Of a DNA stretch of 52,951 nt, positions 8,001 to 47,258 are shown piece after piece; position 1 is the first letter of the stretch, and each line of letters starts with the position of its first letter. The notes under the pieces are model-generated. The model was not told the DNA's origin and did not search any database. It was given only the letters and a program-made list of their open reading frames with translations. Source of the stretch: a virus; IMG/VR virus record IMGVR_UViG_3300042691_023337, positions 1-52,951 of that record. One strand, written 5' to 3'. Made by a program: the position numbers and the translations under genes.

Positions 8001-8757
8001 CAATTTTATCCGCTAACTTATCTAATGATGCAGCCGCTTTTCTTGCAAAGTTCTTATCCTTCACAAGCACCTTATCTACTTCTTCTTGTACTACTGCTGC
8101 AAATTCTTCTGATTCTTTAAATTGTTTTAGGGCTTGTTCCCAAGACTTACCATTCTCTTTTTCTACCTTTTTAAATTCTTCTTCTCTACGCTTGTTTTCG
8201 TAAAACTCTTGTCCTAATGGGCTATCGTAAAATATTGTAGCACCGCTTGTTAGTTTACCCGCTTCTGTATTTTCTTTGGCAAACTCCGTGAAAATATCTG
8301 CACCCTCTTTTGCGTATGCTATTTTTTCTTCATTTGTTTTAGCGGCTCTTTCTAAAGCACTCATTTCATTAAGCACTCTTGAATATAAAGCAGCCCTAAC
8401 AACCCCATCCACATTCTTATCTCTTGCCATTTCCAATGCGGGGTATAATCCATTTTCCTTAAAAACACTTTCCGCTATCTTTTCCGCTTCTAATTTATTT
8501 TGCGGAGAATAATACAAACCATCGCTTTCTACCCTCTCACGTTGGCTTTCATCTACCGCCTTAATCATGGAAGCAATAACAGACCTTTTCTTCATTTTTG
8601 GCTGTTCTTCACCCCCTTCTACTTTAGTTGTTGTTCCTGTTGGTGGGGGTGGGGTATTTAGTGCATCCAAAACTTCTTTCATTAACCCTTCTTGAAGTTT
8701 CTGTGCAAATTCTTCATAAGTAAGTTCTTTACCGTCTAATATGTAAGTACAAGCCAT
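5017..8757 (-). CDS. Large internal cargo/ejection-type protein
   Basis: 1246 residues. After a charged N-terminal part there is a long coiled coil around 340-430 (Glu/Lys heptads such as ESLNKSIANLKEKIAKGEY), a helical middle with several hydrophobic segments around 540-620, a possible membrane helix near 865-885 (GVAAVGFALGAVVSSLI), and a charged helical C-terminus. This is the make-up of phage internal virion or ejection proteins and large polyvalent proteins that travel with the DNA. No catalytic motif could be named. It starts just after a terminator and a TAAATTTG promoter box, so it can be expressed apart from the upstream genes. Confidence 0.6.
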   Translation of the reverse strand: MACTYILDGKELTYEEFAQKLQEGLMKEVLDALNTPPPPTGTTTKVEGGEEQPKMKKRSVIASMIKAVDESQRERVESDGLYYSPQNKLEAEKIAESVFKENGLYPALEMARDKNVDGVVRAALYSRVLNEMSALERAAKTNEEKIAYAKEGADIFTEFAKENTEAGKLTSGATIFYDSPLGQEFYENKRREEEFKKVEKENGKSWEQALKQFKESEEFAAVVQEEVDKVLVKDKNFARKAAASLDKLADKIEKEGIKSVLPDWLKADLPEGTQQQGIDINVLNKAVATAIRAISAAIKAGGKLSEVVNEQAKTLKEKYGLSADQKEIANWLRQQYRQTGAVEKSMEEKVSERIESLNKSIANLKEKIAKGEYTPKEKQVETEEIKKLLEQKKELEKQYNEIKKNTEAYKERVNAKFLDSLKKKLDGMNEAQKGEVIRRMFKKATEAGALEREDLRTIIADVLGLGKMDNATAARFRQYVENISALDKARQEFVDNPTKENRKRLEDAETLGIESKRELGKIVYNQTDLMARIRQMIQLNVMSPVTLTKNVTWNIFEQATRFTGNAFVGMAEKALYASSWVLNKATNGKTKIYQPQTSVIDGFNPFFRSANIGIKQGINTMFKGVSSKDIFSTTMVESPIQPIKSAKDVKNEIILRLKERLSKSDLEDISDGSPVKRMSNAELVDKLIQSTAGFYGEFAARTMSLFDKPARFGAESAKSITMAKNELGVTDKAELELFERYPKEAAYKHLKSKGLSDIEATEKAEVFQERALRQGDKAVMQQENLLSDFITRMGKVSDEFEQKYPIFKLISKPFQIATMPAVLFRKTPANIAWKTFKMINPEVALIEAAANFAKAKRMKKQGDERYKIQLDEVRDNLGVAAVGFALGAVVSSLIDDKIIIPTSEEDDRKGQSAEKNYAAGNKFNYSRFKRLLLGEPLDAPKGESDYLVDMSWFGTTGAIMDLKARLKKQFDKDKETQSYITELGGRLYKGVEVSANATVLEAQKTFTRALSSEDGFTNYGVGFISTMLSPVPFSGSFSRAALDYEYRIKGDNFLDQLKNRFSADNVIYRKLANQYPPARIGVWGDKIYRGGSDFGTTALRYFGISKMNPNAFARPIYDDFVRTGNTKFFPSEPLNKVTYEGVEYELSTQQHDRLKELVGQRRKSNISAILNSDILIVRNRALEKVKYNQLNDEEKAERLQQEYKRGFEEGKEMFFQEMINAGMILNTPEEKKKREKYLNMIKAAKE

Positions 8758-8784: not shown

Positions 8785-8792
8785 CAAATTTA
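8785..8792 (-). promoter_or_regulatory. Promoter -7 box for the 5017-8757 gene
   Basis: The minus strand reads TAAATTTG, matching TAnnTTTG, 27 bases before the ATG at 8757 and directly after a terminator. No TTG is at the usual -33 distance. Confidence 0.5.
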
Positions 8793-8825: not shown

Positions 8826-10163
8826 TCAAAAAAACAAACCATGATAATTCTCCATCGTCTTTAACCAAGAACTTATTAGGTGGTTCTGAAAACCTCTTGT
8901 TTCATCTTGCTGGCCGCTTGCTATGTGTTCAACTTCTTCCATTATGGTCATAGCTATCTCCCTTCTACCCATATCAAACAATTTGTCAGATAGGTATATT
9001 TTCTTATCCTTCACATCAGCCTGCCCTAAAATATCTTCATTATCAAATTGAACAACCCCTATTTCAAATGGTATTTTATACCCCATCTCACTTAATGATT
9101 TAGAAACATCCTTTAAAAGATACTCCATTTTTGGGGTAATCTCAATATCAGTTAACCCAATATTACCCAATGACTTACCCATCCCAAGTATGCTTACTTG
9201 CGGGAAGTCCTCTTTTAAAGCCCTTGCAAAATTTTGAGGGACAAGCAAAACTTCCCTTCTATCTCTACCTATCTGTTCTGCGAACTTCCCAGACTTTTCC
9301 CTAATTACCAATAAATAATCCTTAGCAAAATCAATCCACTTATCAGAAAAAGAACTATCTGGCTTTGTGGTTTCAATAGATTTGTACTCATAGCAAGGGT
9401 TATCGGTATTCCCGCTTCTTAAAACAGTCAAAACATATCTATCACAAGGGAATTTAGCCATTAAATCAGAAAAGCAATATGATAAAGCAGATGTGTTTTT
9501 AGCTGTTCTATCTTCATTAATGGCAACATCATCAAATCCGTAATCAAAAACAAGACTTTTATCAGAATAAACCCTTATCCCTTTTCGATAAATAACACCA
9601 TCCGTTTTCTTATAAATAGAAACATTCTGTCTTGCAATTTTGCCGCCTAAATAACAAGTGTAGACGCTGCCAACATTTTCAATATAATCCCTATCGCTTG
9701 AAAAATAAGAATCCCAATTATTAACAATTTCAGACAACTTCTGAGTGTATTCTATATATATTCTGGTTTTACCTTCGCATGGATTTACATTTTCTGTTTC
9801 TCTAACCATTTGACAACCGCCTTCATCAAGCGCATTGCAATAAATCTCTCTTAACACAAACCAATCTTCAGTCCACGTTGGCCCCATAGTAATAGTATAA
9901 CTTGTGGGTGAGCCGTTTATGCAAATTCTATCAAATTTCTGGTCTTTAAGTTTTTCAGGCGTGGTAGTAAACAATATCTCATTCAACCCAGAAAAAACCT
10001 TAAAATCAATTCCGTTTCGCATCATATAAGCTATGGAATACTTAAGGCCGCTACCAAAAAAACCGATTTTGCCAGAATTATCTCTTTTGGTTGAAGCCCC
10101 TATTAATTCAAATGAATTTGTTTCAATTTCTCCATCGTTTTGAATAAGAATGTACTTTTTCAT
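8826..10163 (-). CDS. GHKL-type (HSP90/MORC-like) ATPase with zincin-like C-terminus, possibly permuted
   Basis: 445 residues. Residues 33-45 (IGFFGSGLKYSIA) resemble the G2 box of HSP90/MORC-type ATPases, followed by a strand like the one seen there. Residues 105-116 (REIYCNALDEGG) resemble the N box with its Glu, Asn and Asp. In ordinary GHKL folds the N box comes first, so the order here is reversed. The C-terminus has a strand (KKIYLSDKLF), then EEVEH at 409-413 and a downstream Asp420, resembling a zincin HExxH site whose first His is Glu. It sits in the cargo gene block but is isolated by terminators on both sides. Role unknown: chaperone, anti-host or defence function, or virion protein. 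The motif reading is mine and unverified. Confidence 0.5.
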   Translation of the reverse strand: MKKYILIQNDGEIETNSFELIGASTKRDNSGKIGFFGSGLKYSIAYMMRNGIDFKVFSGLNEILFTTTPEKLKDQKFDRICINGSPTSYTITMGPTWTEDWFVLREIYCNALDEGGCQMVRETENVNPCEGKTRIYIEYTQKLSEIVNNWDSYFSSDRDYIENVGSVYTCYLGGKIARQNVSIYKKTDGVIYRKGIRVYSDKSLVFDYGFDDVAINEDRTAKNTSALSYCFSDLMAKFPCDRYVLTVLRSGNTDNPCYEYKSIETTKPDSSFSDKWIDFAKDYLLVIREKSGKFAEQIGRDRREVLLVPQNFARALKEDFPQVSILGMGKSLGNIGLTDIEITPKMEYLLKDVSKSLSEMGYKIPFEIGVVQFDNEDILGQADVKDKKIYLSDKLFDMGRREIAMTIMEEVEHIASGQQDETRGFQNHLISSWLKTMENYHGLFF

Positions 10164-10218: not shown

Positions 10219-10247
10219 AATTAAAAAGCCCCGTTTAATCGGGGCTT
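10219..10247 (-). terminator. Intrinsic terminator after the ferritin gene
   Basis: The minus strand has AAGCCCC pairing with GGGGCTT, loop of eight, followed by TTTAATT. It begins five bases after the ferritin stop codon. Confidence 0.85.
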
Positions 10248-10251
10248 CTTT

Positions 10252-10746
10252 TTAGCTAAAGTGTTCGTTAAACCAAAGGTGTTGGAACTTATCATCCTCT
10301 TTTATTAGTTGCAGTTGGTTTAGGTAGTTTGAGTATTCTATTACTGAATCGTTTTGTATTTTTCTTAGTGGGGTTAGGAAGTCAAACGCGCATAAGTCAA
10401 GGTTAAACATTTCCTTAGAAGTATCTTCGTATGCTTCGTAAAGGGCGTATTCTATTTGATAGGCTTGTGAGAATAGGTCGTGGATGTTTTTAAATTCAGT
10501 CTTGGGGGCATCTACCCTTTCTAACTTAGGGTTCACATTCCAATCTACAAGGTACTTTTCTATTAGTTTGGCGTGTTCTCTTTCGTCTAAACTTTCTTGT
10601 CTAAAGAAGTCTGCTAACTTAGCAAACCCCTGAATATCACACCAATTAGCCGCCCCCGCATAGAAATAAAAAGCATCCATTTCATCTGTATGTCTTTCTA
10701 ATAGTAGGGCTACTACTTTACTACTTAATTTTTTGGGTGTTTCCAT
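10252..10746 (-). CDS. Non-haem ferritin (FtnA-like)
   Basis: 164 residues, the usual ferritin length. It can be aligned by eye with E. coli FtnA over almost its whole length, including Trp35-Cys36 and the four-helix pattern. The ferroxidase ligands are all present: Glu22, Glu55, His58, Glu99 and Gln131, plus Tyr29. Ferritins oxidise Fe(II) and store the mineral in a 24-subunit shell. Here it lies between a 1020-residue cargo-type gene and the GHKL-like gene, with a TAAATTTG promoter only four bases before its ATG and its own terminator. It may protect phage or host DNA from iron-driven oxidation, starve the host of iron, or be packed in the particle; none of these is shown by sequence. Confidence 0.9.
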   Translation of the reverse strand: METPKKLSSKVVALLLERHTDEMDAFYFYAGAANWCDIQGFAKLADFFRQESLDEREHAKLIEKYLVDWNVNPKLERVDAPKTEFKNIHDLFSQAYQIEYALYEAYEDTSKEMFNLDLCAFDFLTPLRKIQNDSVIEYSNYLNQLQLIKEDDKFQHLWFNEHFS

Positions 10747-10750
10747 AAGT

Positions 10751-10758
10751 CAAATTTA
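10751..10758 (-). promoter_or_regulatory. Promoter -7 box of the ferritin gene (leaderless spacing)
   Basis: The minus strand reads TAAATTTG-ACTT-ATG. The box ends only four bases before the start codon, so transcription should begin at or very near the ATG. The same arrangement is found at 22680-22687. Confidence 0.55.
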
Positions 10759-10764
10759 ATAATT

Positions 10765-13700
10765 TTAAGGACAATCGGGACTACTTTTTTTAAGCCTACC
10801 TTGTTTTTCTAAATATTCTGTGGCTTTACTAAAGTTCTTTACTGTTTCTGCTATTTCAGGGTTTTGTTTTAGATACTCTGTTATTTTTCTTTTCTTTAAA
10901 GTGGGGGCTTCATCAGATAGTTGAATGTCTGCTATGTCTTTGAATTTATCCGCTAGGGTTTTGGTGGTTTCTGTTGGCTTAGTTTCACTAACAGGAATTT
11001 CTTTTGTAAATCCGTTAGTTTCTTCGTAGGCTTTCCAGTAGTCGGCTTCAAGTTGTTGTTCTGTTTCATAGTCTTGTTCAGCGATAAGTTGCTGTTCTTT
11101 TGTAAGTTTTTTAAATTGTTGTTCTACTACCTTTTCGGCAATTTCTTTATTTAGGTTTATGCCTGTTAATTGTTTGAATTTGTTGGCGGCTTCTAGGGCT
11201 ACATCTGTTTCCACCAATCGCAAGGCCTGTCTTTCCCCGCTTGGAAATCTATCCATGAAGTCTATAAGGTCTGACGGTAAAATCTCAAAACCGTAATGGT
11301 CTGACATTTCTTTTGCTATAACATCTAGGCTTCTACCATCTCTACTTATGTATGTGCGGGCTTTTGATAGGTTCATATTATTCCTATCGCCAAATTCATT
11401 GTAACTATCCCCCTTAACCTTACCTATACCATATTCCGCTATCATTCTATCTTTACTAGATAAGGCTGCGGTTGTTGGTTCTTCATTAGCGTAAAGTTCT
11501 GCAAGTTCGTATGGGTTGTTGCTATTTTCTACCACATAACGCTTTGCTTCTTCTTCGCTTGTAAAACGAATATCGGTTGGTTCTGGGGCTTTTTCACCTA
11601 CCGTATAATCAAAGTTTTCAGCATATTCTTGAATAGCCTTTTTTCTTGTCTTTTCACTTACCTCTTTGCCGTCTTTATCTTTTACAATAAGGTCGCCATT
11701 CTCATCATATTCTACGGTTTGCCTGCCGCTTTTAGTTGTGAAAGGCTTTCTATTGTTTATTTTATTTTGCTCAACCACACCCTTATCCTTAACCTCTAAT
11801 TCAGGTCTTGTTTCAGATATAGTAGTTGTTTCTTTTTCTATGGTGGGGGTTGGTTGTTCTGCTTTTACAGCATCATTTACGGCATCATTTACAGCATCAC
11901 TTATTTCCTTAGACGTATCTACAGGTTCTAGTTCTATTGGTTGTGTTATGTTTTCTGGTTCTCCTTTTAGTTGTTCTTCTGTTAGGGGTGTTTCTTCGAT
12001 TACTTTTTCTTCTGCTATTACGGGTTTTAGTTCTGATATTTTTTTGCCTGTAATATCGTATTCGTGTTGTTCTACGGGCTTACCCTCATAGATAGCATCA
12101 ATATCTTTATCAAGTGCTTCTATTTCGGCTTGTATTTCTTTTTTACGGGCTTCTACTTTTGTTTCCTCAAGTTCCCTTTGCTTTTTAAATTTAGCCTCTA
12201 ATTTGCCCGTTAAAGCATCTACCGTATCTGTCTTTTCTATTGTTTCGGGTACGGAAGCCTTTGCTTCATCGTATTGTTTAAGGGTTTCTGCTACCTTTTC
12301 GGTTGTTCCTTTAGGGTACACACCACTTTCTTCACCTTGTCTATAAACGGTTAATACTTCTTCTCTTGGTAATTCAGATACAATAGCTTTAGCCTTAGAA
12401 TCTACTGCTTTAGATGGGGTTCTTACAAGCCCCGCAACAACAGTCATAGCGTGGGGCAATGCAGCCATAGCCACCTTGCCAACCCCTAATGCACCAACCA
12501 ATTCTGCACCACTTTTAGCCGATTCTAATGATTCTTTGACAATGTCTGAATATGTTAAATCAGCACCCGCTTCTTTTGATATGATACCCCTTGCTGCTGC
12601 ACCCGCACCCATAATAGTTGCCGCTTTAGGGGCTTCTGTCATTGTGTGTTTTGCAGTCTTTTCTACTAAGTCAAGATAACCGCCTGCCGATTGTTCCATC
12701 TTAGCCAACTTGCCAAATGGAATAGAAAACGCAGTTGCTTCTAATGCACCCACCGCAGATGCAGCTACAGCCGCTTGGTCTGCTTCTAATGCTGCTTGCT
12801 TTTTTTGCTGTTCGGTTGGGTTTGGTATGTCTTTTAGTTTACCCGCATACACTCTCTTAAATGTTTCAGCCCTATTGCCGTACATCATATCTTCTATGAA
12901 AGCAATAGATGAGCCTACTGTTTGTGCGCCCGCAGCAGCAGCCGCAGGTGCGTTCAGCATAGCAGCCCCCGCAGTCGCAGCCATACCATACATAATAGGT
13001 CTTACAAGTGGGGTAGTTGCCCCCGCTATATATTCACCTAAAGAACCCATAGCCCCCGACGGCAATTCAGGTAAATATTGTTCACCTTTATTTATTTCTT
13101 CTTCTGCATACTTAATCTTATCATCTAATGACAAGTCGCTAAATATCTTGTTGTCTTGTCTATGCTTTTCTACTCTTTTAGCAGAATCCCACAATGAACT
13201 AAAAAAGTTTTCATTCTTGTAGGCTAATATTCTTTGCCCTGTGTTTGGGTCTTTCGCAATTTGCAAATCGCCATCATTCAACATCTTTTCAAGTTTCTTC
13301 CTTTCAGATTCCACTTGTGTTTCAGATGCCTTAAACTTGGTCTTGTACGCTTTTAGTGTATTTTCAAATGCGCTTTGCTTGGCTTGTTCTTGCCTTTGTT
13401 TAATCAAAGGTCTTTCTTCCACCAATGCTGCTGTTTGCTTTGCAGGTGTAACCGCCCCCGCTAAATCAGTCTTAGGGGAAACAGTTTTATCTTGTGGTAA
13501 AAATGAACCTAATTTGTTTGGGTCGGGTAATGGCTTAGTAGCCCCCGCTTCCACCCTTACCTTCTCACTCTGCCCTTGTGGTCTTGGTATTTCTAATGGT
13601 GATAGTGTAGCCGAAGATGGTACACTCGAAGTAGCCTTTGGAGAAGCGTTTTTTTTTAAATCTAACGAAGTTTCAAAGTCGTCATAATCTAAAAAAAGAC

Positions 13701-21098: not shown

Positions 21099-21371
21099 TT
21101 AATTTTCTGTATAACCCAAAATATCATAATCATCTATCAGCACATACGTTTCGCCATTTTCTTCAATCTCCAACCCTGCGTCTTTAATATGCCAACAAGT
21201 TTGACCTGCTTTAAACTCCATTGGCTTTTTTGCCGTTCCGTTACCCACATCTACAATCTTTGCTTGGCATCCCCTTTTCTTAAAAGAATCAGGCACAATA
21301 ATACCACTATCTGTTACATCTTGCATAGGTACTGGCTTTAATAGCACCTTGTTTCTAATTGGCTTTATCAT
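21099..21371 (-). CDS. GroES-like co-chaperonin (Cpn10)
   Basis: 90 residues, close to the 95-97 of GroES. It starts IRNKVLLKPVPMQDVTDSGI, with the mobile-loop region and the GIIVP motif that contacts GroEL, followed by AKIVDVGNGTAKKPMEFKAG (the GxVxxVGxG and K-x-G-Q/D strands) and ends with ETYVLIDDYDILG, matching the Cpn10 C-terminus. Phages such as T4 (gp31) carry their own co-chaperonin so that host GroEL can fold capsid protein. Here it lies in the neck-gene cluster, 2.4 kb from the capsid gene, and may serve that purpose. Confidence 0.85.
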   Translation of the reverse strand: MIKPIRNKVLLKPVPMQDVTDSGIIVPDSFKKRGCQAKIVDVGNGTAKKPMEFKAGQTCWHIKDAGLEIEENGETYVLIDDYDILGYTEN

Positions 21372-26778: not shown

Positions 26779-29106
26779 TTATGCCATTTGTTGTTTCTGT
26801 TCTTGTGCTGCCATCATTTGCTCTTGTTCGGCTGCTACTATTTCTTGTTCTTGCTGCTTATTATCCATATACAGACTCATTGCTGCTTTTTGAATGATTT
26901 GCTGCAACAGCTCGTTCATTTCGGGCTTCATTTGCACACCGTTCTTAGTCAACTCAATAGCCCCCTGTAATACAATCTGTCTTTCTTTTGCTGTTGCTTC
27001 TGCGTCTTTAATCATCATATCAGAATTAGCCTTTTCTTTTGCAGATGCTATTTGGCCTTGAATATTCATTTCACTATTCTGTTGGGCTATTTGCTGCTTG
27101 GCTTTAATGTATCTTTTTTGCGCCCTACGGAAATATAACTCCGCTAATCTTACATCTTCCTTAGCCATTCTTTTAATCTTGAATGGGTCTATGTATAAGA
27201 TAAATTCAGGGTCGGATATAATTGCGTTATTCAACATACCTTCCAAATTCGCAATGTCTTGCGCTTGGGGCATCATTTCTACTTTTGTAGCAAACACTCT
27301 ACCATCTACATCTTCTTCTTGAAGAATGTCTTTGTAAGTCTTTGCACCATACTTAACACTATCACTACATAAGCAAGCAACCTTTTTAGCTACATCTTCC
27401 ATCAAATACAAGTAAGAATCGTAAATGTGTTCTGTAGCTTGCTCGGCTGTTACAAGTGCGTTTTGTGCGTTTTCTGTGGTTACTCTTGGGGCTGAAATTG
27501 CATTAGAAATGTTCGGGTTTTCGCCTAGTTCATCTTGTAAGACTTTGTAGTGAAACTCGTACAATCTAATCAAACCTTCAACTTGCGATTGAAATGCGTT
27601 GTTAGCTAATTCAGTAATAGGTGTTTGTAAGTAATTACCTTCCGCATCTCGTCCTCTGTAATATAAATCACCCGTTTGTTCCCAAATCTTTTTAATCTGC
27701 AAGGGGCTTGTAGGTTCTGATAACCCCATATCAATCGCTTGCAAGGCATCAATATTTACAGCAGAACCCGAAGGCTTCATTTTAGCTACAAGTTGCTGAA
27801 TTTTCAGCCTTGCCAAAATCATTTGTTCAATAGGTTCTTCTACTTTTTCAGGGATAGCTACATTTCGCATATCCTGATTTTGGTACATATAGAAACTATA
27901 AGAAAACTCTGCGTTACCTAATTCTTTGGGGTCTTGTGGTCTTACCATGTTTTTCTTTACGCCCCACTCCAACATAATCTGTGGGTTCATAATAAACACG
28001 CCCCTGTAGATATTATACTCACCGCTTTTTACTACGGATTGATTTTCTTTTATCTTTTCAGGTAAGCCACGTCTTACAATAGTGTTGTTCTTTTCTTTTG
28101 TCTTAGTAACGGTGTACGCTTCTTCGTCAAAAGATTTAATTTCAAACTCTATTGTATCAATATTCCATTCATCGTATGGTCTAAATAATGAAGTATTCCA
28201 CTCTTGCAACCATGTAAGTCTATCAATAAGCTGATATTCTTTACACATCTGTGCAATCTCAAATAGTTTTTCTTCTGTCAATGTTCCGCCCGCTTGCACA
28301 CCATACTTTTGTCTTAAAGCACTAATCTTTACAGAACGGATATAACCTCTCCATGAAGTATCTCTAAAATCATTAAACTCCGAAAATGAATAAATAATAT
28401 TTTCAGGGCGCAGCCATTCACTTACTACTTCGCCTTGTTCGTTCATGTAAGTGTAAGTACCAATTAAACCAACAGATGCAGCATCCCAAATAAGTTTTTC
28501 TTTGATTGTGCTATACAAACCATTTGCAGACAAAATATTATTTGCTGCAAGCGAAAACTTAATTTCTTCAGGTAGTTGGTTAAACTCTGCAACCCATTGG
28601 TCAAGTTCGTCTTTATCTTCGGGCACGAATTGGTCTTGTGGTATCATTTGAACACCTGTAGCTTCTTGTTCCGCTAACAGTTGTTCTTTATTCAACATGA
28701 AAAACTCCGCTTCTAATGCGGCTTGATTCTTTCTTTTTTTGGCATCTAAATCTACGGCAGATACTTGTATCTTTTCTTTTCTACCCATAAAACGGGCGAC
28801 CATTCTACCGATAGCAGTATTTACTATCTTAATGGCTTGCCAGTTAATGTTTGCGTAGTTTACTTTCCCGTCAAAGTTCAACCTATCCATGAATACTTGC
28901 ATATTCATGCGGCCATTAGCAATCTCTCTATTCTTTCTGAAACGCTGATTTCTTAAAAAGAAATAGCTTTGGTTTCCTGTAACAGAACCATAAATTGTCT
29001 TAGCAATAGATTCACCCCAACTCCAATCTTTTTTAGACTTTACATCGGGGGTAAGCTGAAATTGCTTTATTGCTTGTGAACCTTCGGGTATGCTATTTTG
29101 AGCCAA
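26779..29106 (-). CDS. Portal protein
   Basis: 775 residues. Portals form the dodecameric DNA gate at one vertex. It follows terminase and precedes head genes. Features that fit are an N-terminal region with repeated Arg/Asn (NQRFRKNREIANGRMNMQVF), helical segments around 530-620, and a long C-terminal helix rich in Gln/Glu/Met (from about 680) as in the barrel of large podovirus portals. The start codon is TTG; the only other starts lie far inside (Met64), and TTG follows a perfect promoter. The length is similar to the large portals of crAss-like phages, which is a weak argument. Confidence 0.8.
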   Translation of the reverse strand: MAQNSIPEGSQAIKQFQLTPDVKSKKDWSWGESIAKTIYGSVTGNQSYFFLRNQRFRKNREIANGRMNMQVFMDRLNFDGKVNYANINWQAIKIVNTAIGRMVARFMGRKEKIQVSAVDLDAKKRKNQAALEAEFFMLNKEQLLAEQEATGVQMIPQDQFVPEDKDELDQWVAEFNQLPEEIKFSLAANNILSANGLYSTIKEKLIWDAASVGLIGTYTYMNEQGEVVSEWLRPENIIYSFSEFNDFRDTSWRGYIRSVKISALRQKYGVQAGGTLTEEKLFEIAQMCKEYQLIDRLTWLQEWNTSLFRPYDEWNIDTIEFEIKSFDEEAYTVTKTKEKNNTIVRRGLPEKIKENQSVVKSGEYNIYRGVFIMNPQIMLEWGVKKNMVRPQDPKELGNAEFSYSFYMYQNQDMRNVAIPEKVEEPIEQMILARLKIQQLVAKMKPSGSAVNIDALQAIDMGLSEPTSPLQIKKIWEQTGDLYYRGRDAEGNYLQTPITELANNAFQSQVEGLIRLYEFHYKVLQDELGENPNISNAISAPRVTTENAQNALVTAEQATEHIYDSYLYLMEDVAKKVACLCSDSVKYGAKTYKDILQEEDVDGRVFATKVEMMPQAQDIANLEGMLNNAIISDPEFILYIDPFKIKRMAKEDVRLAELYFRRAQKRYIKAKQQIAQQNSEMNIQGQIASAKEKANSDMMIKDAEATAKERQIVLQGAIELTKNGVQMKPEMNELLQQIIQKAAMSLYMDNKQQEQEIVAAEQEQMMAAQEQKQQMA

Positions 29107-29163: not shown

Positions 29164-31221
29164 TTAAAACTTTTCTACTTGTTGTGAGAAATATTCTTTA
29201 ATAAAGGGTTCTGAAGGCGAAATTTGTTGTGGTAAAGGTTCTGTGAGCACCACTATAAGCATCATAAAAGATACTACGCAGTCAAACTTGGTTCTATCGT
29301 ATGGGTCAAAATCTTTGGCAAATTTTAACAAAATAGGATAATCTATTTTATGGCAATAATTTTCAAAGTAAGCGATACCGCAATCTAACTGCTTAGTTAG
29401 TGAAAATGGGGTTACGGGGAAGCCCCTTAATCTTTCTGCTTTACCCCTATCTTCGGGCTTTATTGCGCTAACGGGGTACAAGCCAAGATAAGCCAACTTG
29501 CCTCTTTCTCTAAAATACGAAAAGTAATCATCGCCCCCCGCGTGTTCATACCATGCTTGATAGCCGTAGTATTCAGATGCAAGCATTACTTGTTCGTGTA
29601 ATTCTTCCTTTACTTTGGGTCGCCCGTATAAGTGTCCTACAGCCTTAAAACTGTTTTGCGTATCTGAAAGGTCTATTCTTCTACCTATCCATGCGGAAGC
29701 CTTTGAACCGTACTTTCTGCCGCCTTGTGAACTTGAATAACTATCCACCGTAATAGCACCATCCCTTGTGTTGTCAGGAATAAAATCTATCCCTACTTTT
29801 TTTCTCTTGTTTGGCACTTTAGGGAACCATGTAATTTCCCAATGAAATTCGCTGTTTTGGTTGGCATCCCGCCACTTAACCGTACCGTCAAAATCTCTGT
29901 AAAATTGTACTTTTCTTAGGTGTACGGGCTTTTCTGATAATTCCTTTTCCCTTTTCTGTATGTTTAAAATATTGAATACGCAGTTTTCGGAATCTATTAA
30001 AAACGCCTCATCAATAGTAAGTGGTTCTTTTCTAATACGGGCAGCAAGTGAACGGGGGTTGTTTTTTACTTTCTCACGGTCAAGCAAAATCATCTTTTCC
30101 GTAAGTGCTTCGTCAGGGTGTCCGTATGGGTCAAAGTTCCTTGTTCTTTTGGCAGACATAAAGAATCGGTACAAACCACTACCCGTCATGCCATCTTCGC
30201 CCTTTCTTAATTGGTCGCTTTCATCCCAAAGCAATTTAAAGGCAGACGAAATATCTTCATCTTCACCCTCAATTTTTTCTACGGTTGTGGTGTACAACGC
30301 TTTACCAATAACCCTACCTTCATCATCTAATAAACAATAACGAACAACCTCATGCCTGTTGTAAACATCCACGCCCTTAGTCTTTGCAACCTCGTCCGCT
30401 ACGTATCTATGTAGTTTTTGACCATCGTATGCTACTTCTTCTGATGAACCCCAATCTATGATTGAACCAAGTTCATCTTCGCCTACGTTTTGGTTAGCCC
30501 TTTTGCCCTTTACGTTTGGTCTTTGAAAACGCATTTCAGACTTAGGGTTCACACCAAGACTATCATCATAAACAGGTCTAAAAAACTTAGGTAATCTTCT
30601 AAAAGGATTTACAACCGTTTTAGAAAAGAACTTTTTAGCATCTGCGCCCGTCTTAGATTGAATACCTGCGTTAGTCATTTTAGTACGGGTAACGTATTCC
30701 GTAAGAAACACGCCCGCCCAAAATGATTTACCAAATCTTCGTTTCGTTACTTCAACCATCCCCATACACTTAGGGTCTTCTATGCAATACTGCATAAAGT
30801 AAGCCTTTTCTAAGTCGGGAATCCTGAATTTTGGGTAGCCAATATCAATCGGCCACCACATAAGGTATAAATAATGCGTACCCGTTAGGTAAACCGCTTC
30901 ACCGTTATTTCTAAACCAAAACCCGTTAAGTCGTCTATCCCACTCTTGCCTTTTAAATTCTTCAAGTCTTACATCGTAAAAGTCGGGTTCTGTTTCTTTC
31001 TTTTTGGAATCGTAATCATCCCATTCCTTCATTACATCTTTGTACCAAAGCGGGAGCTGTGGTCGTTCCCAATATTGCTCTTTTGCATCCTCACTACGTT
31101 CCCATACGCCTCTGTATTCTAGCTTTTTAGTGATGATATTATACACATACCCTTCGGGGGGTAGCCAACAGTCTAACCCCTGCACATGAACACACTTACC
31201 CCCTTCTATTGGTTGATACAT
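29164..31221 (-). CDS. terL: Terminase large subunit
   Basis: 685 residues. The packaging motor ATPase/nuclease. A Walker-A-like motif is at 160-167 (KRRFGKSF), in the modified form typical of terminases; a Walker B is at about 272-277 (RYVADE). The C-terminal nuclease domain shows candidate metal ligands: Asp in VGIDFIPDNTRDGAITVDSY, Asp-Asp in GGDDYFSYF and Asp in KFDCVVSFMML near the end. The N-terminal adaptor region (WERPQLPLWYKDVMKEWDD) is long. It opens the late gene block and follows a possible small subunit by two bases. Confidence 0.9.
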   Translation of the reverse strand: MYQPIEGGKCVHVQGLDCWLPPEGYVYNIITKKLEYRGVWERSEDAKEQYWERPQLPLWYKDVMKEWDDYDSKKKETEPDFYDVRLEEFKRQEWDRRLNGFWFRNNGEAVYLTGTHYLYLMWWPIDIGYPKFRIPDLEKAYFMQYCIEDPKCMGMVEVTKRRFGKSFWAGVFLTEYVTRTKMTNAGIQSKTGADAKKFFSKTVVNPFRRLPKFFRPVYDDSLGVNPKSEMRFQRPNVKGKRANQNVGEDELGSIIDWGSSEEVAYDGQKLHRYVADEVAKTKGVDVYNRHEVVRYCLLDDEGRVIGKALYTTTVEKIEGEDEDISSAFKLLWDESDQLRKGEDGMTGSGLYRFFMSAKRTRNFDPYGHPDEALTEKMILLDREKVKNNPRSLAARIRKEPLTIDEAFLIDSENCVFNILNIQKREKELSEKPVHLRKVQFYRDFDGTVKWRDANQNSEFHWEITWFPKVPNKRKKVGIDFIPDNTRDGAITVDSYSSSQGGRKYGSKASAWIGRRIDLSDTQNSFKAVGHLYGRPKVKEELHEQVMLASEYYGYQAWYEHAGGDDYFSYFRERGKLAYLGLYPVSAIKPEDRGKAERLRGFPVTPFSLTKQLDCGIAYFENYCHKIDYPILLKFAKDFDPYDRTKFDCVVSFMMLIVVLTEPLPQQISPSEPFIKEYFSQQVEKF

Positions 31222-47158: not shown

Positions 47159-47252
47159 GAACGGGTGGCGGAATTGGTAGACGCTATGAATCTTAGGAAG
47201 ATACGTAAATCGTGACAATGCTTCCTTGCAGGTTCGAGTCCTGCCCCGTTCA
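47159..47252 (+). tRNA. tRNA-Leu-like gene (probable UAG anticodon)
   Basis: Acceptor GAACGGG/CCCGTTC with A as discriminator, D-arm GCG-GAATTGGTAGA-CGC, T-arm GCAGG-TTCGAGT-CCTGC, and a long variable region, as in class II tRNA-Leu. The loop CTTAGGA (47192-47198) reads as anticodon UAG. No CCA is encoded. The anticodon stem is poor: only three of five pairs form in this register. A shifted register gives four pairs but an unusual AGG anticodon. Could be a degraded or a specialised tRNA. Confidence 0.75.
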
Positions 47253-47258
47253 CTAAAA

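Follow-up and report, generated by a model that had tools for sequence, protein, structure and literature searches.

The ferritin gene found among the late genes of an uncultivated phage raises the question of whether it is a genuine viral gene and, if so, whether its product acts in the infected cell or in the virus particle. The window analysed here, a linear IMG/VR virus record of 52,951 nucleotides, encodes a terminase, a portal protein and a 1419-residue structural protein that belong to families of Flavobacterium Elemovirus and Cellulophaga phi38:1-type podoviruses (Table 1). A box of Bacteroidota type, TANNTTTG, is over-represented ahead of the window genes: it precedes 10 of 62 starts, where shifting gives an expectation of 2.4. 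Together with the phage-family matches, this enrichment suggests that the host probably belongs to the Flavobacteriia or to a class related to them. The structural block includes a gene for a GroES-like co-chaperonin (21099-21371), and the early region contains a single tRNA-Pro (AGG) gene (47159-47253).

Table 1. Coordinates of the ferritin gene, its neighbours and the main late genes in the window
Feature	Position	Strand	Basis
Terminase large subunit	29164..31221	-	phrog_6681, 5.5e-66; Elemovirus and Cellulophaga phages
Portal protein	26779..29106	-	phrog_6547, 9e-36
Virion structural protein, 1419 aa	16063..20322	-	phrog_14478, 3e-69; phi38:1 gp97
Late protein, 248 aa	15315..16061	-	Weak profile match to phi38:1 gp99 / elemo gp20 virion proteins, probability 54 %, E 1e-4
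Late gene, 493 aa	13830..15311	-	Position of phi38:1 gp100; sequence match to gp100 not detectable
Upstream giant gene, 1020 aa	10765..13827	-	Homology to giants of relatives
C-terminal tag of upstream giant (..LEKQGRLKKSSPDCP*)	10768..10893	-	Profile built without the window, 2.4e-7; alignment
TAAATTTG box, 4 nt before ferritin ATG	10751..10758	-	Resembles Bacteroidota -7 element; too close
Viral ferritin gene, 164 aa	10252..10746	-	ORF with ATG start, Pfam/PDB matches, AlphaFold model
Intrinsic terminator directly behind ferritin gene	10223..10250	-	11-bp stem, -19.7 kcal/mol, z -4.4
445-aa gene, between ferritin and second giant	8826..10163	-	phrog_8203, 4.5e-59
TAAATTTG box, 27 nt upstream of second giant	8785..8792	-	Promoter-like
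Second giant gene, 1246 aa	5017..8757	-	ORF downstream of ferritin
N-terminal tag of second giant (MACTYILDGKELTYEEF..)	8674..8757	-	Profile built without the window, 2.4e-4

Fold and ferroxidase centre

The window gene encodes a ferritin that is specific to viruses and has the Ftn fold of non-haem bacterial ferritins. A preliminary description of this DNA had placed a complete FtnA-type ferritin gene here, and its coordinates proved exact: PF00210 (Ferritin) matches residues 13-148 with an E value of 5.6e-17 (62.4 bits, with the curated cut-off at 24.5, over profile positions 2-142 of 142), and the closest PDB sequences are bacterial non-haem ferritins (E 2.4e-11). An AlphaFold model computed with 52 viral homologues as input (mean pLDDT 95.5) has the four long helices (9-39, 42-68, 88-116 and 118-145) and the short fifth helix E (153-161) of the Ferritin family. 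Foldseek ranks ferritins of H. pylori, Vibrio and Campylobacter at the top, with TM scores of about 0.9 (0.91 to 5c6f/3bve); the structure model, a check that the same description had suggested, shows the four-helix bundle with its di-iron ligands intact. Dps proteins have no helix E and carry the ferroxidase site between subunits; helix 153-161 and ligands at the intra-bundle Ftn positions rule out this identity, and phage Dps models rank far behind in a BFVD structure search with the viral ferritin. Bacterioferritin, which has Glu and His at the FtnA Q127 and E130 positions, is likewise ruled out by Gln131 and Ser134, and the Bfr model TIGR00754 gives 16 bits against a cut-off of 125.6.

Glu22, Glu55, His58, Glu99 and Gln131 align with E17, E50, H53, E94 and Q127 of E. 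coli FtnA, which serves as the numbering reference; the cellular sequences used for comparison came from retrieved loci. These five A- and B-site ligands are invariant in 52 viral homologues and also in 63 rows of the second viral subtype (type 2, described below). The C-site glutamates E49, E126 and E130 and the tryptophan W122 never vary among the 42 cellular FtnA-type sequences used for comparison, whereas nearly all type-1 viral sequences have other residues at these positions. The window protein has D54, I130 and S134 at the three C-site positions, which sets it outside the FtnA subfamily, and P126 at that of W122; it scores 39.8 bits against the cut-off of 178 for the bacterial FtnA equivalog PRK10304 (NCBIfam). 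Type-2 ferritins keep the E49 equivalent but have I130 and A134. The earlier statement that every ferroxidase ligand is kept is thus right for the A and B sites but incomplete, since the viral family has lost the C-site glutamates of bacterial FtnA. A glutamate at the E130 position is missing from animal H-ferritins as well, so a mechanism using only the A and B sites is expected for the viral protein.

In its fold (TM 0.91), helix E, A/B ligands and conserved Tyr24 (Tyr29 in type 1), the viral ferritin resembles H. pylori Pfr and E. coli FtnA, from which it differs by an identity of only about 20-25 %, by the altered C site and W122, by its placement in a separate clade and by virus-specific residues. 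The latter, N34, E51, Y106, Y138 and S/A134, mostly with Y103, occur in both viral subtypes and are missing from the cellular sequences, which favours a single viral ancestor.

Distribution and selection

As far as our searches reach, the ferritin clade appears confined to one lineage of uncultivated Bacteroidota podoviruses, in which about 155 IMG/VR contigs carry it, a count that includes near-identical contigs and comes entirely from metagenomes. Type 1 was found in 21 relatives by a single-protein scan and in 93 contigs by a profile scan; the divergent type 2, carried by the closest terminase relatives, was found in 62 contigs by its own scan. TerL of phrog_6681 was present in 29 of 38 type-1 and all 24 type-2 carriers tested. 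Selection on the gene is strongly purifying (median dN/dS 0.053 over 112 pairs). The search for the same gene in related phages, which the preliminary description had proposed, therefore succeeded, and its view of a maintained gene is borne out by the number of contigs, their shared neighbourhoods and the low dN/dS.

Patterns of the viral ferritin retrieved no relative from 84,980 prokaryote species genomes. Among 395 Bacteroidota genomes there was no viral-type copy, and the best match to the viral profile (92 bits) falls among ordinary cellular ferritins in a tree that separates 28 type-1 and 2 type-2 viral sequences from 43 cellular ones with an SH-aLRT of 96, as read from a quick tree with long branches and unknown root. 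Ferritins are common in Bacteroidota, which would make recent pickup of a host gene or a misassembly conceivable; against this stand the conserved neighbours across all these contigs, the separate clade, the dN/dS of 0.05 and the lack of a cellular copy in both genome sets, and we give such an origin practically no weight. Host contamination or misassembly in particular is ruled out by the number of contigs and the want of any viral-type copy in the species genomes scanned.

Isolated phages lack the gene: a tblastn search of 50,697 phage records recovered no member of the clade and only two weak matches of bacterial type. The gene is absent from the nearest cultured relatives (phi38:1 and Elemovirus) and from two close TerL relatives (G002 and G015), indicating that ferritin is dispensable for this type of virion.

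Two structural positions

In most loci the ferritin lies in a late context between two giant virion-type genes, in agreement with the initial description of a gene between cargo-type virion genes. That description had also given the gene a promoter and a terminator of its own. The terminator, a hairpin (Table 1), is confirmed and makes ferritin the last gene of a late transcription unit. The promoter found no support: 18 nt separate the ferritin start from the stop codon of the giant gene upstream, a site of the sigma-70 type is missing just ahead of the start, and the sole TANNTTTG box nearby, probably no promoter, stands 4 nt before the ATG, whereas at nine other window genes this distance is 18-35 nt. 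In related loci the ferritin start often overlaps the upstream stop.

The upstream giant is 27-30 % identical to untagged giants of ferritin-less relatives and 49 % identical to the tagged giant beside type-2 ferritin in the nearest terminase relatives. Type 2 behind so similar a giant indicates that one ferritin subtype was exchanged for the other in place, and the occurrence of both subtypes at the same spot behind homologous giants indicates that ferritin is selected there. Homology of the window giants to phi38:1 gp101 or elemo gp18 was not detected, and the case for their being virion proteins comes from their position and from other members, such as the L019 giant, which matches elemo gp18 (33 %, 1e-58). 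Neither the giants nor the 445-residue gene gave anything firm in Pfam, PADLOC or the PDB, and the latter gene was not found in the seven nearest TerL relatives. The downstream giant of another contig (L003, 10498-18009; 2503 aa) contains an ART-PolyVal domain (2e-19) and is a polyvalent protein; this domain is typical of polyvalent proteins, for which packaging and injection have been inferred (PMC5512222).

The giants flanking ferritin carry cysteine-containing tags on their facing ends. The C-terminal tag, conserved in ferritin-adjacent giants, follows the pattern ..NP.L.YI..N..I.KQLE..GL..K.GNCP*, and the N-terminal tag of the downstream giant reads MAxPCxIxYxGKxYSYEEFAxMLHDGLL. A cysteine occurs within the last five residues of the upstream giant ORF in 61 of the 80 type-1 loci with enough flank and within the first eight residues of 60 of 63 downstream giants, again in type-1 loci (near-identical contigs are counted, and the effective numbers are smaller). 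Scans with the tags found ferritin carriers only (15/15 with the N-terminal and 17/17 with the C-terminal tag, in overlapping sets), including two contigs that the ferritin scans had missed and in which ferritin still lies beside the tag. Two ferritin-less terminase relatives encode the homologous giant in one gene that carries no tag. The converse, that tags occur wherever ferritin does, is ruled out by 19 of the 80 type-1 loci and all loci of the portal type described next; untagged giants are found in four portal-type genomes and, beside ferritin, in one other genome. Four contigs have an extra giant with both tags: L048 (7032-9986), L049, L050 and L064 (7322-9976).

The second location is the head module. 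In 36 type-2 contigs (see L282-L310, for example L289 4998-5492), ferritin starts one to ten bases behind the portal gene (in L289, phrog_6547, 1e-66) and is followed by genes of 380 and 450 residues at head-gene positions. This location strengthens the option of a virion component, one of the roles originally considered. Two late structural positions support, without proving, an association of the ferritin with the particle or its assembly, and these positions, translational coupling and replacement in place together suggest that ferritin is needed with virion proteins.

Possible roles and known systems

We favour, at a probability of about 60 %, a late-expressed and probably virion-associated ferritin that detoxifies Fe(II) and peroxide and whose A/B centre is under strong selection. 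The protein would be made late, alongside virion proteins; its A and B sites would bind Fe(II), to be oxidised with O2 or H2O2, and the ferric product would be stored in an oligomeric shell, for which the presence of helix E makes a 24-mer probable. Without a C site, turnover like that of the animal H-type centre would be expected. Less certainly, a ferritin attached to the virion or its assembly, as its place either immediately after the portal gene or flanked by virion-type giants suggests, may keep iron and peroxide from phage DNA and metal-sensitive late proteins. Precedents for this reading are the putative ferritin in the Sajous1 proteome, discussed below, and the ART-PolyVal domain of one downstream giant. 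A 12-nm cage is too wide for a phage tail, and ejection into the cell would thus need disassembly or a smaller oligomer. That the C-site-less shell sits in or on the head, partnered with the giants through their Cys tags to give an iron-oxidising particle, seems to us rather doubtful.

The main rival to virion association is late intracellular protection, whereby an unpackaged auxiliary would buffer iron freed from host proteins late in infection and lessen Fenton damage to phage DNA. We consider this a serious possibility, if not the one we would choose: the ferroxidase centre is intact, the ferritin itself has no recognisable packaging signal, giant-virus ferritins are read in the same way (PMC7136201), and late operons also hold non-virion helpers, as the GroES gene in the structural block of the window illustrates. 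What speaks against it is that virion genes closely adjoin the ferritin in every case, at two separate structural positions, whereas Lactobacillus phages have their Dps near replication genes. In a Ferrojan-type role, iron-loaded particle ferritin would offer iron at adsorption and exploit the iron-uptake receptors of the host, which would suit the richness of Bacteroidota in TonB receptors. This hypothesis is published, and Salmonella phage Sajous1 has a Phyre-predicted ferritin, gp217, that was detected by mass spectrometry (PMC10892097), in a different phage family and from a Phyre model only, with 22 % identity to its template. We nevertheless think the role improbable here, because the neighbours of the viral ferritin are head-module and giant cargo-type genes, with no tail-fibre or receptor-binding context, and because Sajous1-type phages infected TonB- and FeoB-deficient hosts normally.

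Two described groups of phage proteins of the ferritin-like superfamily are Dps or catalase, not FtnA-type: 'Gratiaviridae' phages encode Dps and Mn-catalase (Benler 2021, PMC8008677), and Lactobacillus phages carry Dps near replication genes (PMC6669764), all read as iron/peroxide protection. Giant viruses also encode ferritins (PMC7136201), but have eukaryotic hosts and belong to an unrelated virus realm. The view that phage-coded ferritins are rare thus fits isolated phages and the literature, and fails for this lineage, in which they are widespread. Our searches of open-licence papers brought up no account of FtnA-type ferritins as a phage gene family, of its genomic context or of its altered active site; two database entries relate to it. 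A0A6J5MFB8, automatically labelled 'Ftn Ferritin-like protein (Fragment)' in BFVD, is 43 % identical in structure alignment and probably of the same family; phrog_16594, which carries no functional annotation, matches both viral subtypes.

It has been proposed that phages carry iron and play a part in the iron cycle of natural waters, but the phage ferritin-like proteins described so far are Dps or uncertain predictions. The large, sharply defined viral clade reported here has a changed ferroxidase centre and is kept among virion genes by strong selection; it suggests that these phages either handle iron while their particles are being made or have an iron-oxidising protein in the particle itself, and it offers a concrete protein for asking whether phage particles hold protein-bound iron. 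It also provides a natural C-site-less ferritin of bacterial type, useful for mechanistic work.

Ferritin sequences in Staphylococcus phage records and in unannotated faecal fragments were rejected as members, since they match cellular ferritins better than the viral clade, and are possibly bacterial DNA. The Staphylococcus records, OR845001.1 and OR850087.1 (Staphylococcus phage SA 1306/1298 Kay), contain an unannotated cellular-type ferritin and may be bacterial DNA that was deposited as phage.
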